DNA from: Peptostreptococcus anaerobius VPI 4330 = DSM 2949
GTDB taxonomy: Bacteria > Bacillota > Clostridia > Peptostreptococcales > Peptostreptococcaceae
Direction of reading: 5' to 3'
NCBI RefSeq assembly: GCF_000381525.1
Contig: NZ_KB906607.1
Span: 62,001 to 126,000 of the forward strand
DNA: 64,000 nucleotides
Below, piece after piece: positions 3,061 to 38,508 of the stretch (positions are counted from its first letter, which is position 1; every line of letters begins with the position of its first letter). The position numbers were made by a program, and so were the translations under genes. Under the pieces are notes generated by a model. That model saw nothing but the letters and a program-made list of their open reading frames with translations, made no database searches and was not told where the DNA came from.

Positions 3061-3765
3061 TTACCTCCCAATAAATTTATTTATAAAATATATCTGTCCT
3101 TTACCTGTAACCTTCGTGGTCCTAGTAAGCCTTACAGACCCATTAGCATTCACTACAGAACTTTCCTTAATCTCAAATAGTCCCATTTGCATTGATTGTT
3201 GAGTAGGCATATTATAACTTTCTCCCTTACGGCTTATTAAGTATCCATTTTTACGTAACCACTCAAATAGCCTATTTTGTCCTATATCAAACCCATTCTG
3301 TTTGATTAACTTAGCTAGGTCACCGATTAATATACTACACTTACTAGCTTCAACGCTTTCAGCAAATAATACTTTAGGTCTTTGCTCTTTTATTGTTAAT
3401 TCTAGTGTATTAATTTTCTTATCTGCCAGCAATAACGCTCTAGCCATTATTCTTTCAGGGCTATTAAATTCCTTTTCAACTTCAATAAAGTACTGTCTGA
3501 ACTCTCTACCTTTTTCGTTCCTCTGAATCATACATATTTCTTTAGCCATATCTATTTTAACCATATGGTCATCTAATTCTTGTCTGGCTAGGGCGTTAAA
3601 AACTTTACACCCTAAATAATCTTCTCCTTCTACAAAACCATAATGTAGCATTCTATTAAACCAACTAGAATATCTTTCTGTTATCTCTAGCCTTGAATGT
3701 AGTTCCCTGCCACTTACTACTGGTTCCTGATTATCATTAGTTGTTACAGTTATCAATTCGTTCAT
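3061..3765 (-). CDS. Phage antirepressor (AntA N-terminus, KilAC C-terminus)
   Basis: Residues 1-95 match the AntA/AntB antirepressor domain (SGRELHSRLEITERYSSWFNRMLHYGFVEGEDY). After a coiled linker, residues 125-234 match the KilAC DNA-binding domain (LAKLIKQNGFDIGQNRLFEWLRKNGYLI). Such proteins bind or displace the lysogeny repressor and promote induction. The position far from the CI gene but inside the leftward early operon is typical. The start directly abuts the stop of the 75-residue gene upstream. Confidence 0.88.
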   Translation of the reverse strand: MNELITVTTNDNQEPVVSGRELHSRLEITERYSSWFNRMLHYGFVEGEDYLGCKVFNALARQELDDHMVKIDMAKEICMIQRNEKGREFRQYFIEVEKEFNSPERIMARALLLADKKINTLELTIKEQRPKVLFAESVEASKCSILIGDLAKLIKQNGFDIGQNRLFEWLRKNGYLISRKGESYNMPTQQSMQMGLFEIKESSVVNANGSVRLTRTTKVTGKGQIYFINKFIGR

Positions 3766-20836: not shown

Positions 20837-21205
20837 ATGAACTTCGCAATAAGATTTAAGCAACTAAGGAGAGAATTGGATTACACACAGGAAGAATTGG
20901 CGGATTTTTATAATAAAAAGTACTATACAACTTTTAATAAGTCCACAATATCACAGTATGAAAATGGTAAAAGGCTCCCGGATTTAGATACCATATCTAA
21001 TTGGGCTGACTTGTTCGATGTTTCTATTGATTATTTAGCAGGTAAGACCGATATTAAAGAAATAAATAGAACTAAACCTTCTTCATTACATACTGATATT
21101 ACAACAATGGCAGCACACAAGGCAGACCTGACACAAGGAATAAAAAACATTGATGGTTTAAAGGATTTGTTAAGAGAGATTGTAAAAGAAGAATTAGGTA
21201 AATAG
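20837..21205 (+). CDS. CI-like phage repressor
   Basis: 122 residues: XRE helix-turn-helix at 4-66 (FKQLRRELDYTQEELADFYNKKYYTTFNKSTISQYENGKRLP) and a short C-terminal tail ending LREIVKEELGK, a helical dimerization segment. There is no LexA-type peptidase domain, so induction probably needs the ImmA-like protease and/or the antirepressor. A strong AGGAAAGGAGG precedes the start. Confidence 0.85.
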   Translation: MNFAIRFKQLRRELDYTQEELADFYNKKYYTTFNKSTISQYENGKRLPDLDTISNWADLFDVSIDYLAGKTDIKEINRTKPSSLHTDITTMAAHKADLTQGIKNIDGLKDLLREIVKEELGK

Positions 21206-21218
21206 AAAGGATATCGAT

Positions 21219-22184
21219 ATGGGTAAAAAGGTTATTCCTAATGATGAAATACTAACTAAGTTAGATGCTTTTCTAAATGAACTTGATGATGATAGGTCAA
21301 GTAAAACAAAGTATTGGATTAATGATTATATCAGGTTTCAAAAAGAAGAAATAAAGATATCGTCTAATTCTAGACACGCATATAAAAAATATAATCGTGG
21401 GGATATAATAAAGGTACACTTTGGTTTTAGGGTCGGACGTGAGTTTGGTGGTCTACACTATGCAATCGTTATAGGTGGGCACAAAAATAGAAAAAGTGAT
21501 GTTCTTACTGTTATACCTCTTAAATCAGCAAAACCAAATGTAAATGTAGATTTTCTAAAAAATGGCGAGTATTATTTAGGACACAATGTTTGTGATGCAA
21601 TAAATAAAAATTTAAACTTACATTTTCAAAAACTAACTGAAATCAACCTTCTATTTACAAGTAAAAAAAATACACTAGATAACTTGAAAAATGATGCTAA
21701 AGGGCTTGATGATATATTAAATAGCCTTATAAATAATATTGATAAGACCGATGATTCCCAAGATAACAGTAAAATTATAAAGGCTAGTGAATTAGTTTCT
21801 AATATTAACAATAAATTAAAGGATGAAATACTTGATATTCTATTAAAATGTAATCAACTTGGAATATTAAAAGCAAATACCCTTTTAAATTTAAAGCGAC
21901 CAGCAGATTTAAGTTTTGAAGATATGAATAGATATATAAATACTATTAACAAGTCGTTGAAAGATGAATTAACATATATAGAAAAACTACTAAAAGAAAA
22001 TGATAGAATGAAAGTAAACGGTAGTATCGCATTGTTAAACCAGATAACAACCATAAGTAAAATTCGAATCTATGACCCAAAAACAAAAACAGACGCTTTA
22101 AATGATATTAAGATAAGTGATGAAAATTTAAAAAATATAGATAACGAGTTAAAAAAAATGCTCATTGAATCTATTGACAAATAA
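21219..22184 (+). CDS. PemK/MazF-fold protein with long helical C-terminus
   Basis: 321 residues. At about 60-150 the pattern YNRGDIIKVHFGFRVGREFGGLHYAIVI...SDVLTVIPLKS matches the PemK/MazF endoribonuclease fold. The remaining 170 residues are helical and charged. Canonical toxins are about 110 residues, so this is an enlarged form. It directly follows the CI-like gene, with no separate small antitoxin gene. Whether it cuts RNA is unknown; the small RNA gene just downstream is a possible partner. Confidence 0.75.
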   Translation: MGKKVIPNDEILTKLDAFLNELDDDRSSKTKYWINDYIRFQKEEIKISSNSRHAYKKYNRGDIIKVHFGFRVGREFGGLHYAIVIGGHKNRKSDVLTVIPLKSAKPNVNVDFLKNGEYYLGHNVCDAINKNLNLHFQKLTEINLLFTSKKNTLDNLKNDAKGLDDILNSLINNIDKTDDSQDNSKIIKASELVSNINNKLKDEILDILLKCNQLGILKANTLLNLKRPADLSFEDMNRYINTINKSLKDELTYIEKLLKENDRMKVNGSIALLNQITTISKIRIYDPKTKTDALNDIKISDENLKNIDNELKKMLIESIDK

Positions 22185-22202
22185 TGAAAAAGATGCTATA
22201 TT
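22174..22202 (+). promoter_or_regulatory. Consensus sigma-A promoter
   Basis: TTGACA, a 17-bp spacer and TATATT. The -35 box lies over the last codons of the PemK-like gene. Predicted start of transcription is about 22209-22211, just ahead of the repeats. It is one of the best promoter matches in the window. Confidence 0.8.
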
Positions 22203-22209
22203 CTTTATA

Positions 22210-22312
22210 TAATATATTACCTGTTTCGGCAGGTACTGGAGAACATTTTATCTGTTTCGGCAGGTACTGGAATTAGGAAAGCACTATTCATTGTTTGGAT
22301 AGTGCTTTTTTA
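22210..22312 (+). ncRNA. Putative small RNA with two 31-nt repeats and its own terminator
   Basis: Between promoter and terminator there is no ORF with a ribosome site. Two copies of a 20-base element (22221-22240 and 22252-22271) recur every 31 bases. Each begins with CCUG/UCUG, a UUUCGG loop and CAGG, and is followed by UACUGGA; the loop UUUC could pair with GGAG or GGAA to make an H-type pseudoknot. This resembles, but is shorter than, the repeat antitoxins of type III toxin-antitoxin systems. The identification as RNA gene is inference from architecture. Confidence 0.55.
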
Positions 22313-22313
22313 T
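22278..22313 (+). terminator. Rho-independent terminator of the repeat RNA
   Basis: A perfect 10-bp stem (AAAGCACTAT/ATAGTGCTTT) with an 11-base loop, followed by TTTTTTATTTG. It separates the repeats from the lipoprotein gene, which starts about 30 bases later, so partial read-through may feed that gene. Confidence 0.85.
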
Positions 22314-22343
22314 TTGTTTAAATTAATTTATTTGGAGGAATTT

Positions 22344-23105
22344 ATGAAAAAATTATTATCAACTATTTCAGCTTTATTAATCGGTGTTTCACTTGTTGCC
22401 TGTAGTGAGAAAAAAGAGCAAGTACACTATTACGATAACGATTATGTGCAGGCTGTTAAAATGGGGCTTGAGAGACGTATTAAGATAGTAGATGGGGATG
22501 AGTATAAAAACGCCCAATCACCTAATGAAAAGGATCTAATAGTTTTAAAAGGTGTTAAGGAAGAATTAAACACAGTCAACGGATTTAAGGATAAGACTTT
22601 TAACAATCCCGAACTAAAAAAGATAGCTCAGGACTACGAAAAAGCACTTACAATACAGTCTGAAAACCTACCTATAAACAATGATTTAGATAAAAGTAAG
22701 GCTTTTGAGGATGCATATAACGATAGAACAAAGATAATAATTACTCTAATAGATAAGTACGGACTAAAAATTGACAGAAATATAGAAACAGAATTTAGAC
22801 AGAACGCAAATTCAGTCACTAAAAAAGATAATGTTGAATCTAAGTTAATAGATGCATTAAAAGCATCAGAATTTAAAAAATTAGAACAACAACATTACGG
22901 TGCTAACATCAAAAATACAACTGGTGAAAAATTAGGTAACTTAATTATTAACTTTAAATTAATAGATAAGGATGGCGTTACAATCGGTACAGGTCAGTAT
23001 GCTAATACAACTGAATGGGCACCAGACGAAGTTAAAAGTATAGATTTCTATACAACATCAAAAAAGAACTTTGAAAAAATAGAATTTAGCATACAGCAAT
23101 TATAA
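22344..23105 (+). CDS. Prophage lipoprotein with FxLYD-like C-terminal domain
   Basis: 253 residues from MKKLLSTISALLIGVSLVACSEKK: a signal peptide with lipobox LVAC, so it is exported and lipid-anchored. The middle is helical and charged. The last 85 residues (NTTGEKLGNLIINFKLIDKDGVTIGTGQYANTTEWAPDEVKSIDFYT) match the FxLYD immunoglobulin-like pattern. GGAGGAATTT is the ribosome site; an upstream ORF start at 22302 is not used. Lipoproteins in this lysogeny position often block superinfecting phage DNA entry, which I infer here from location only. Confidence 0.78.
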   Translation: MKKLLSTISALLIGVSLVACSEKKEQVHYYDNDYVQAVKMGLERRIKIVDGDEYKNAQSPNEKDLIVLKGVKEELNTVNGFKDKTFNNPELKKIAQDYEKALTIQSENLPINNDLDKSKAFEDAYNDRTKIIITLIDKYGLKIDRNIETEFRQNANSVTKKDNVESKLIDALKASEFKKLEQQHYGANIKNTTGEKLGNLIINFKLIDKDGVTIGTGQYANTTEWAPDEVKSIDFYTTSKKNFEKIEFSIQQL

Positions 23106-38214: not shown

Positions 38215-38508
38215 AAAAAAACTCCCATCCTCCGACATATGTCAGAGGACGAGAGTACTAAAATCAATACTTCGTGTTCCCACCTCTATTCGCCACAATC
38301 TCACGATAATGGCCTCATCAGGTACAAGATACTATACCTTAGCACTGTAACGGGTGCACCCGTGGTAGCCTACTCTAATTTCGGTACCCAACTCAAAGAT
38401 GTGTTCAATAATCCTCATCAATTGCTTTTCACCAACCAGCAACTCTCTGCATGACTAATATCATCTACTAGTTCTTATCCTCGTCTTCTATTCTATAGCG
38501 TTGAATAC
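38215..38508 (-). ncRNA. T-box riboswitch, histidine-specific
   Basis: On the minus strand the leader shows the T-box landmarks in order: AGAGAGTTGCTGGTTGGTG apical region of stem I, specifier CAC at 38401-38403 in GAACACATCTTTGAG, GGTACCGAA, AGTAGGCTACCACGGG, and the antiterminator bulge GAGGTGGGAACACGAA at 38271-38286. The UGGG there pairs with a CCCA tail, which only tRNA-His has (C73). The terminator stem lies at 38221-38256 with seven or more T after it. Uncharged tRNA-His would therefore turn on the ABC transporter. Confidence 0.93.

Follow-up and report, generated by a model that had tools for sequence, protein, structure and literature searches.

The PemK-like gene and the RNA cassette behind it

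The window, that is, the whole 64,000-nucleotide stretch of Peptostreptococcus anaerobius VPI 4330 analysed here, carries on its plus strand a gene (positions 21219-22184) for a 321-aa protein with a predicted MazF/PemK fold, a putative endoribonuclease toxin according to Pfam, AlphaFold2 and VIA-align. An HTH protein gene (20837-21205) lies upstream of it. Downstream, beyond a short RNA cassette, come a gene whose product reads as lipoprotein-like from its N-terminus and belongs to no Pfam family (22344-23105) and then genes for an IrrE-like peptidase and a resolvase-type recombinase. The nuclease gene is present at 100% identity in a viral contig, indicating that the locus is the lysogeny end of a prophage. 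A tRNA search of the window found none. Elsewhere in the window, a T-box leader (RF00230, 118.8 bits) was recognised on the minus strand at 38242-38490.

Next to the PemK-like gene, the initial annotation had described a cassette made of a promoter, repeats and a terminator, and this description was borne out. The promoter (22174-22202, plus strand) comprises a TTGACA -35 box at 22174-22179, a 17-base spacer and a TATATT -10 box at 22197-22202, with 11 of 12 consensus matches. Its -35 box overlaps the final codons of the PemK-like ORF, the stop codon of which is located at 22182-22184, and comparable promoters lie 3′ of the gene in relatives. Two repeat units follow on the same strand (22211-22240 and 22242-22271), 30 nt each, 90% identical and at a spacing of 31. 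Each contains a hairpin (22219-22234 and 22250-22265, respectively), the stem of which carries a C-G pair in the first unit and a U-G pair in the second. An intrinsic terminator of the small RNA (22274-22312, plus strand), with a T-rich tail after it, ends about 30 bases 5′ of the start codon of the lipoprotein gene.

The predicted RNA folds at -38.5 kcal/mol compared to -18.35 (sd 3.0) for shuffled sequences (z -6.7; 0 of 200 shuffles as low), a large share of this energy being supplied by the terminator hairpin. Between 21000 and 23500, promoter-like sites numbered 11 against 15.5 in shuffles, i.e. fewer than in shuffled sequence, and terminator-like sites numbered 2 against 0.7. The window promoter alone is therefore not above chance and derives its weight from its conservation in relatives. 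Since repeat-to-repeat pairing is predicted to be 4 kcal/mol better than two local hairpins in the window copy, the two-hairpin form also rests on the relatives. The roughly 100 bases had been regarded as free of ORFs; this was not strictly correct, as a 30-aa ORF spans 22184-22276, but compensatory hairpin changes in relatives argue against a coding role for it.

The cassette DNA matched only its own locus when compared to the host genome, and the exact 20-base repeat was present, among viral contigs, in one near-identical contig only. Rfam 15 was run on the window and on 40 relatives' loci, and no family reached its gathering score on a cassette. The same scan gave six matches, all of them off the cassettes, the nearest lying just past the cassette of locus L008 on the opposite strand. 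In this locus, from Streptococcus phage Javan166, the S. pyogenes sRNA Spy779816 (RF02589, 76 bits) was found directly beyond the cassette terminator (3298-3384, minus strand). The abiF motif (RF03085) was absent from the window at gathering score and from the 23 permissive matches in 22140-22340.

The window protein matches PF02452 (PemK_toxin) at E 8.8e-8, its sole Pfam match at E up to 1; Abi_2/AbiF was not matched at that threshold. In the AlphaFold2 model (mean pLDDT 86, from a 25-row alignment), a long helical insertion at about residues 123-265 splits the MazF core. VIA-align superimposed the model (range 57-318) on S. aureus MazF (4mzp) with a Z of 12.7 over 109 of 110 residues and an rmsd of 2.3. 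Foldseek returned none at E 0.001 or better and its best rows were MazF, at E 0.01 and a probability of 1.00. These predictions suggest a MazF-fold, endoribonuclease-like gene product. ToxN, CptN and TenpN were not among the matches listed in the fold and sequence searches, a result that is compatible with kinship to them. Neither the PADLOC models nor NCBIfam gave a match to the window protein, and MazF PRK09907 (NCBIfam) was matched by 3 of 25 family members. PHROG 1412, labelled 'antitoxin mazE-like', was matched at 6e-54; because the protein is predicted to fold like the nuclease MazF, this label is doubtful and looks like it names the wrong half of the toxin-antitoxin pair.

The catalytic residues of MazF, which we take to be Arg25 and Thr48, correspond to His80 and Lys102 in the window protein. 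Profile alignment of 111 members placed His at the Arg25 position in 102 and Arg in 9, while Arg was found in 29 of 31 MazF-like controls. Catalysis may thus differ or be lost, given this His and, in the window protein, a Lys where MazF has Thr48. At the Thr48 place, 94 of the 111 members have Thr (64) or Ser (30), the next residue is Ser in 107 members (also in 23 of the 31 controls) and a Lys stands two places after that Ser position in 80 members, which suggests a working active site in most of them. By inspection, this stretch resembles the ToxN active-site residues Pro50, Leu51, Thr52, Ser53 and Lys55, as given in the available parts of PMC8860590.

Conservation of the cassette among relatives

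The distant relatives show 21-40% identity to the window protein in a protein alignment. Scans with the single protein matched one near-identical viral contig, none of the genome contigs and 4 of 100 relatives' genomes, own genome counted; within the host's taxonomic family, 24 of 71 genomes gave a match at E 0.001 or better, weak or short besides the protein's own gene. A second PemK-like match, also weak, was seen in the host genome itself (contig C26, 13236-13418, E 1.1e-7, in a 177-aa open frame). A tblastn search picked up distant relatives in staphylococcal and streptococcal phages (37 records), and five phage 3′ flanks that were inspected showed a comparable layout with different hairpin sequences. 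Single-protein scans being insufficient for distant relatives, profile searches were required. The loci collected in this way were viral (best 80 of 180), from named genomes (72) or from 391 and 398 sampled genomes, for which the tallies of 43 and 22 include ordinary MazF genes as well as the genome to which the window belongs. Once near-copies were removed, 155 hits were left.

Cassettes were counted in 108 relatives with a profile score above 100 bits and adequate flank. A cassette was called where a promoter with at least 10 of 12 matches had, 60-190 bases downstream, a terminator in the same orientation, and the search began 40 bases further upstream than the stop codon, as promoters overlap the gene. 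Promoter and terminator were found 3′ of the gene in 83 of the 108 relatives in the forward orientation and in 85 on either strand. By comparison, the strict definition was satisfied by 9 of 923 other open-frame ends in the same loci (many such frames are not genes), by 4 of 30 MazF-like genes of the ordinary kind and, in the same loci, by 5 of 164 gene ends before intergenic DNA (10 of 164 on either strand). With a looser setting, 93 of 108 relatives were positive on either strand against 51 of 923 open-frame ends, 7 of 30 MazF-like genes and, among the 164 intergenic gene ends, 9 forward and 21 on either strand. Starting the search at the stop codon, which cut off the overlapping promoters, still gave 64 of 108 relatives in the forward orientation versus 7 of 920 open-frame ends. 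These comparisons back the proposed tie between the cassette and the PemK-like gene, and the pairing of the two genes, one for RNA and one for protein, is well supported. The window cassette is linked to the family because of protein homology, place and build.

Most of the 15 relatives without a called cassette at the looser setting show, by eye, a promoter and hairpins with a weak terminator; in L213 hairpins are present and a clear promoter is absent, and in L152, L122 and L211 the nuclease gene appears broken. A protein tree was built from 111 members scoring above 45 bits, with L052, L122, L211, L099, L220 and L114 left out. The 13 members that the script called cassette-less were scattered singly in it (13 changes), a pattern consistent with missed detection or isolated losses. 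The window protein (L001) belongs to a supported group of 26 rows (97/86) that includes streptococcal and lachnospiral members.

The promoter sits between the nuclease gene and the hairpins. In three members (L044, L094 and L100), the cassette is inverted with its own promoter (TTGACA-17-TATAAT or TAATAT); these members cluster in the protein tree (98/42) and form a group of four with the forward-oriented neighbour L040 (100/99). Inverted cassettes with their own promoter indicate an RNA gene that is neither a leader nor solely a 3′UTR. The conserved design, as shown by comparison, is that of a separate RNA gene whose own strong promoter would drive a short transcript of about 100 nt, with two similar hairpin units and a terminator.

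The module is carried by viral contigs, phages, satellite phages, the 15.6-kb element PT1028 and small plasmids of Bacillota, Acinetobacter, Marinitoga and Fusobacteriota. Among 12 plasmid loci inspected by eye, 10 have at least two hairpin units 3′ of the gene (Bacillus subtilis pSX01705-2, Natranaerobius pNTHE02, Sutcliffiella, B. weihaiensis, Acinetobacter lwoffii pALWEK1.5, Marinitoga pMARPI01, Leptotrichia, Anoxybacillus, Rummeliibacillus and Enterococcus L252). The remaining two are a Fusobacterium locus with one hairpin unit and Enterococcus L152 with its apparently broken gene. In two plasmid loci, a rep gene lies directly upstream of the nuclease gene, and such carriage is as expected of an addiction module. 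In the viral contig L051 (3660-3785 and 3997-4400), an abiF RNA (RF03085, 37.1 bits for a gathering score of 37) lies directly behind the module. The gene after it matches Abi_2 (E 5.7e-19 over the first 114 aa), two distinct RNA-protein modules thus standing back to back.

No conserved protein partner was found beside the nuclease gene when 1345 neighbour ORFs of at least 45 aa from 105 loci were compared by blastp, a search that fast-changing or smaller antitoxins could escape. Among neighbour clusters present in at least 6 loci, one read as HTH regulators covered 43 of the 105 loci, those read as integrases or recombinases covered 31 and 8, and others covered 10 and 9. The integrase downstream of the module was confirmed in one checked locus (L008). 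Apart from the integrase/recombinase clusters, no downstream cluster exceeds 10 of the 105 loci.

Hairpins, tags and promoter-terminator complementarity

The hairpin potential ascribed to the two repeats by the initial annotation was substantiated in relatives. When 20 chosen cassettes with two hairpins were aligned, RNAalifold predicted both hairpins as well as the terminator stem, and 11 of 13 pairs showed a double change. Within the two hairpins, 94.4% of cells pair compared to 78.4 in shuffles, 31 cells are changed on both sides compared to 9.6 and the covariation score is 0.555 compared to 0.242; for each of these measures, 0 of 500 shuffles, which ignore relatedness, were as high. The number of pairs with a double change (6) was a weaker measure, with 13 of 500 shuffles as high, and the number of further pair types (11) was not above shuffles (256 of 500). 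Sliding the partner strand lowered hairpin pairing to 24-52%. By this comparison, the hairpins are maintained by compensatory changes in the 20 aligned members.

A covariance model built from the 20 cassettes was run on 83 further loci. At E up to 1 it recovered the cassette in 35 loci, of which 14 reached E 0.01 or better, and 1 of its 36 hits was off cassette (L147, minus strand, E 0.87). The model did not recover the divergent cassette of the window itself. The number of units is not uniform. In L048, a second hairpin pair and a second terminator follow the cassette within 260 bases 3′ of the gene, as if the RNA gene were duplicated, and the Anoxybacillus plasmid locus (L250) has, by eye, three hairpin units 3′ of the gene instead of two.

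The core of the RNA is usually ordered as a tag, a short hairpin, a linker ending in AAG, a second copy of the tag and a second element. The two tags resemble each other within a member and vary between members. With a strict pattern, which 47 of 107 cassettes fitted (31 distinct pairs) and which was devised after the outcome of a loose pattern, the two tags were identical at 4.03 of 5 positions compared to 2.97 when permuted (0 of 5000 as high); the window cassette is not among the 47. The loose pattern gave a weak signal, 2.82 of 5 against 2.56 (sd 0.10) in 56 members with some hairpins mis-assigned, and for 37 distinct tags the values were 2.65 and 2.40 (sd 0.12), some permutations being higher.

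Part of the promoter region is complementary to the terminator. In the window, the promoter stretch CAAATAATGAA (22178-22188, plus strand) is complementary to TTCATTGTTTG (22287-22297, plus strand), and it could pair with the 5′ arm and loop of the terminator only in a readthrough transcript coming from the nuclease gene. Of the 92 members of a set that omits six doubtful cassette calls (L196, L173, L189, L201, L048 and L191) and promoters at least 120 bases away, 61 have a strong Watson-Crick seed between the promoter region and the stretch before or in the terminator; swapping the partners gave 26.5 (sd 3.5). The expected 5′ end of the RNA showed no excess of complementarity (7.33 versus 7.22). 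At the helix edges, G-U exceeded A-C (92 versus 56; 12.3% versus 11.5% in swaps), an excess that points to pairing at the RNA level. The number of pairs expected in the nascent readthrough transcript is 8.1, compared to 4.4 with swapped promoters, and 63 of 98 members have at least 5 expected pairs versus 39% of swaps. The pairing between promoter and terminator may make the copy within the mRNA fold or terminate differently from the free RNA.

Proposed function and relation to known systems

The build of the cassette, with promoter, repeats and terminator beside a nuclease gene, resembles that of type III antitoxin RNAs, as had been proposed. Type III systems (ToxIN, CptIN, TenpIN and AbiQ) likewise combine an endoribonuclease gene with a small tandem-repeat RNA that has a promoter and a terminator, and tandem repeats are found here too, two in the window and two hairpin units in the 20 aligned relatives. 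The repeat spacing is 31 in the window and 34-36 nt in ToxIN and AbiQ according to the available parts of PMC5086642. The short tag bordering each unit in the family is reminiscent of the single-stranded ends of ToxI, which, in the accessible text of PMC8860590, are the recognition and cut sequence of ToxN. However, in the type III arrangement outlined in the same portion of PMC5086642, the RNA lies upstream of the toxin in one operon, with a terminator between them, whereas the RNA of the window and its relatives lies downstream, has its own promoter and is sometimes inverted. The family also differs in usually having two units and in a protein that matches MazF by sequence and fold, with a helical insertion and His at the Arg25 place. 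The initial annotation had treated the two repeats and the upstream nuclease as departures from type III; both are seen in the window, but they are usual in the family and not peculiarities of this locus. Altogether, the module looks built to work like type III systems, yet it fails the type III gene order and its protein matches another family.

In the AbiF-RCd22 system of the C. difficile prophage phi027, as described in the available sections of PMC12373285, an RNA with two motifs neutralises the toxin by direct binding; RCd22 is about 100-130 nt long, with a SigA promoter and a terminator. A phage-borne toxin, putative in our case, and an RNA with two motif copies, promoter and terminator are shared with the module studied here. 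The AbiF protein family (Abi_2) is different and RCd22, according to the same sections, lies upstream of the toxin gene and is co-transcribed with it. In comparison with type II MazEF/PemIK systems, the MazF fold is shared, but a search of ORFs of at least 45 aa in 105 loci gave no conserved antitoxin protein next to the nuclease gene, behind which an RNA gene stands instead, and Arg25 and Thr48 are His80 and Lys102 in the window protein, the former being mostly His in the family.

A MazF-fold nuclease, a repeat RNA with its own promoter, mobile carriers and the failure to find a protein antitoxin together suggest a toxin neutralised by RNA. We therefore favour, as the likelier explanation though far from a secure one, an RNA-paired nuclease module that acts like a type III toxin-antitoxin system, in which the RNA would be the antitoxin. 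The mechanism that we propose draws on the parts of the module and on the ToxIN and AbiF-RCd22 precedents. The RNA would bind the nuclease with one hairpin unit per protomer of a MazF-like dimer, presenting one and the same short tag to each active site as a decoy and keeping the nuclease inactive. It would be made in excess from its own promoter and would presumably be short-lived, so that the nuclease would be released once the element was lost or an infecting phage shut transcription off. The freed nuclease could serve prophage or plasmid maintenance and possibly abortive infection. More tentatively, and with the odds somewhat against it, the family could represent a distinct class of RNA-paired MazF-fold modules that prophages, satellite phages and small plasmids carry across several phyla. 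In this class, (i) the dimer would be given two copies of a tag by the RNA, both copies changing together between lineages, so that the tag co-evolves with the specificity of the nuclease, and (ii) the promoter, when contained within the nuclease mRNA, would pair with the terminator or the stretch before it, so that the mRNA copy folds unlike the free RNA.

Several observations run against an antitoxin role for the RNA: an HTH gene, which could itself encode an antitoxin, is nearby in 43 of 105 loci, and the window cassette is divergent, being missed by the covariance model and the strict tag pattern, with an energy that favours the repeat-to-repeat fold. The substitutions at the active site (Arg25 replaced by His in 102 of 111 members, and Thr48 by Lys in the window) point the same way and would suit a non-toxic ribonucleoprotein regulator, in which a MazF-fold protein with lost or changed catalysis is loaded with the RNA and acts on chosen mRNAs by binding or cutting them, for example in guarding lysogeny or blocking superinfecting phages. 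The long helical insertion in the MazF core and the frequent siting in lysogeny regions would also agree with such a regulator, but the module is carried by small plasmids as well, and the Thr/Ser (94 of 111), Ser (107 of 111) and Lys (80 of 111) residues near the Thr48 place are ToxN-like, as judged from the available parts of PMC8860590; we regard this alternative as unlikely, although it is the strongest of the competitors. Less probable still is that the hairpins and the promoter-terminator complementarity form a 3′ cis element governing how the nuclease mRNA terminates, decays or cleaves itself, with the separate RNA being secondary. The complementarity itself (61 of 92 members versus 26.5 swapped; G-U 92 versus A-C 56) and the expected pairs in readthrough transcripts (8.1 versus 4.4; 63 of 98 members with at least 5 versus 39% of swaps) are what such an element would predict. 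A pure 3′UTR, however, would not need the conserved promoter between gene and hairpins, and inverted cassettes are unable to act in cis on the nuclease mRNA; both functions could coexist.

Two further candidates were rejected. A type I antisense RNA against the start of the nuclease mRNA would fit an RNA gene that adjoins a putative toxin gene. Nevertheless, in 94 members with nuclease starts guessed by script, the RNA body scored 15.33 against its own nuclease start and 15.03 (sd 0.25) against those of other members, 234 of 2000 permutations being as high; complementarity to the own start region is thus no better than to that of other members, and we consider this option very improbable. The least probable of all is the suggestion of the initial annotation that the cassette is a leader or attenuator of the lipoprotein gene at 22344-23105. 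The position of the terminator, about 30 bases upstream of the start codon, would agree with it, but the genes downstream vary among relatives (integrase/recombinase clusters in 31 and 8 of 105 loci) and the cassette is inverted in three members.

The protein family is already present in annotation as PHROG 1412, the label of which is silent on any RNA, and plasmid records name its members 'type II toxin-antitoxin system PemK/MazF family toxin'. We found no description of the RNA or of its pairing with the protein in the open-access literature, including the available parts of PMC9241854, PMC5086642, PMC12804078, PMC8860590 and PMC12373285. If the favoured reading as an RNA-paired nuclease module is true, genes filed as type II PemK/MazF toxins with no conserved antitoxin protein alongside would be controlled by RNA, and ToxIN, CptIN, TenpIN and AbiF would be joined by a family of RNA-paired nucleases that has a gene order of its own. 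The co-varying tags would make the specificity of the nuclease guessable from sequence. Such a family would bear on prophage and plasmid maintenance and on phage defence in Bacillota prophages, satellite phages and the small plasmids of several phyla.
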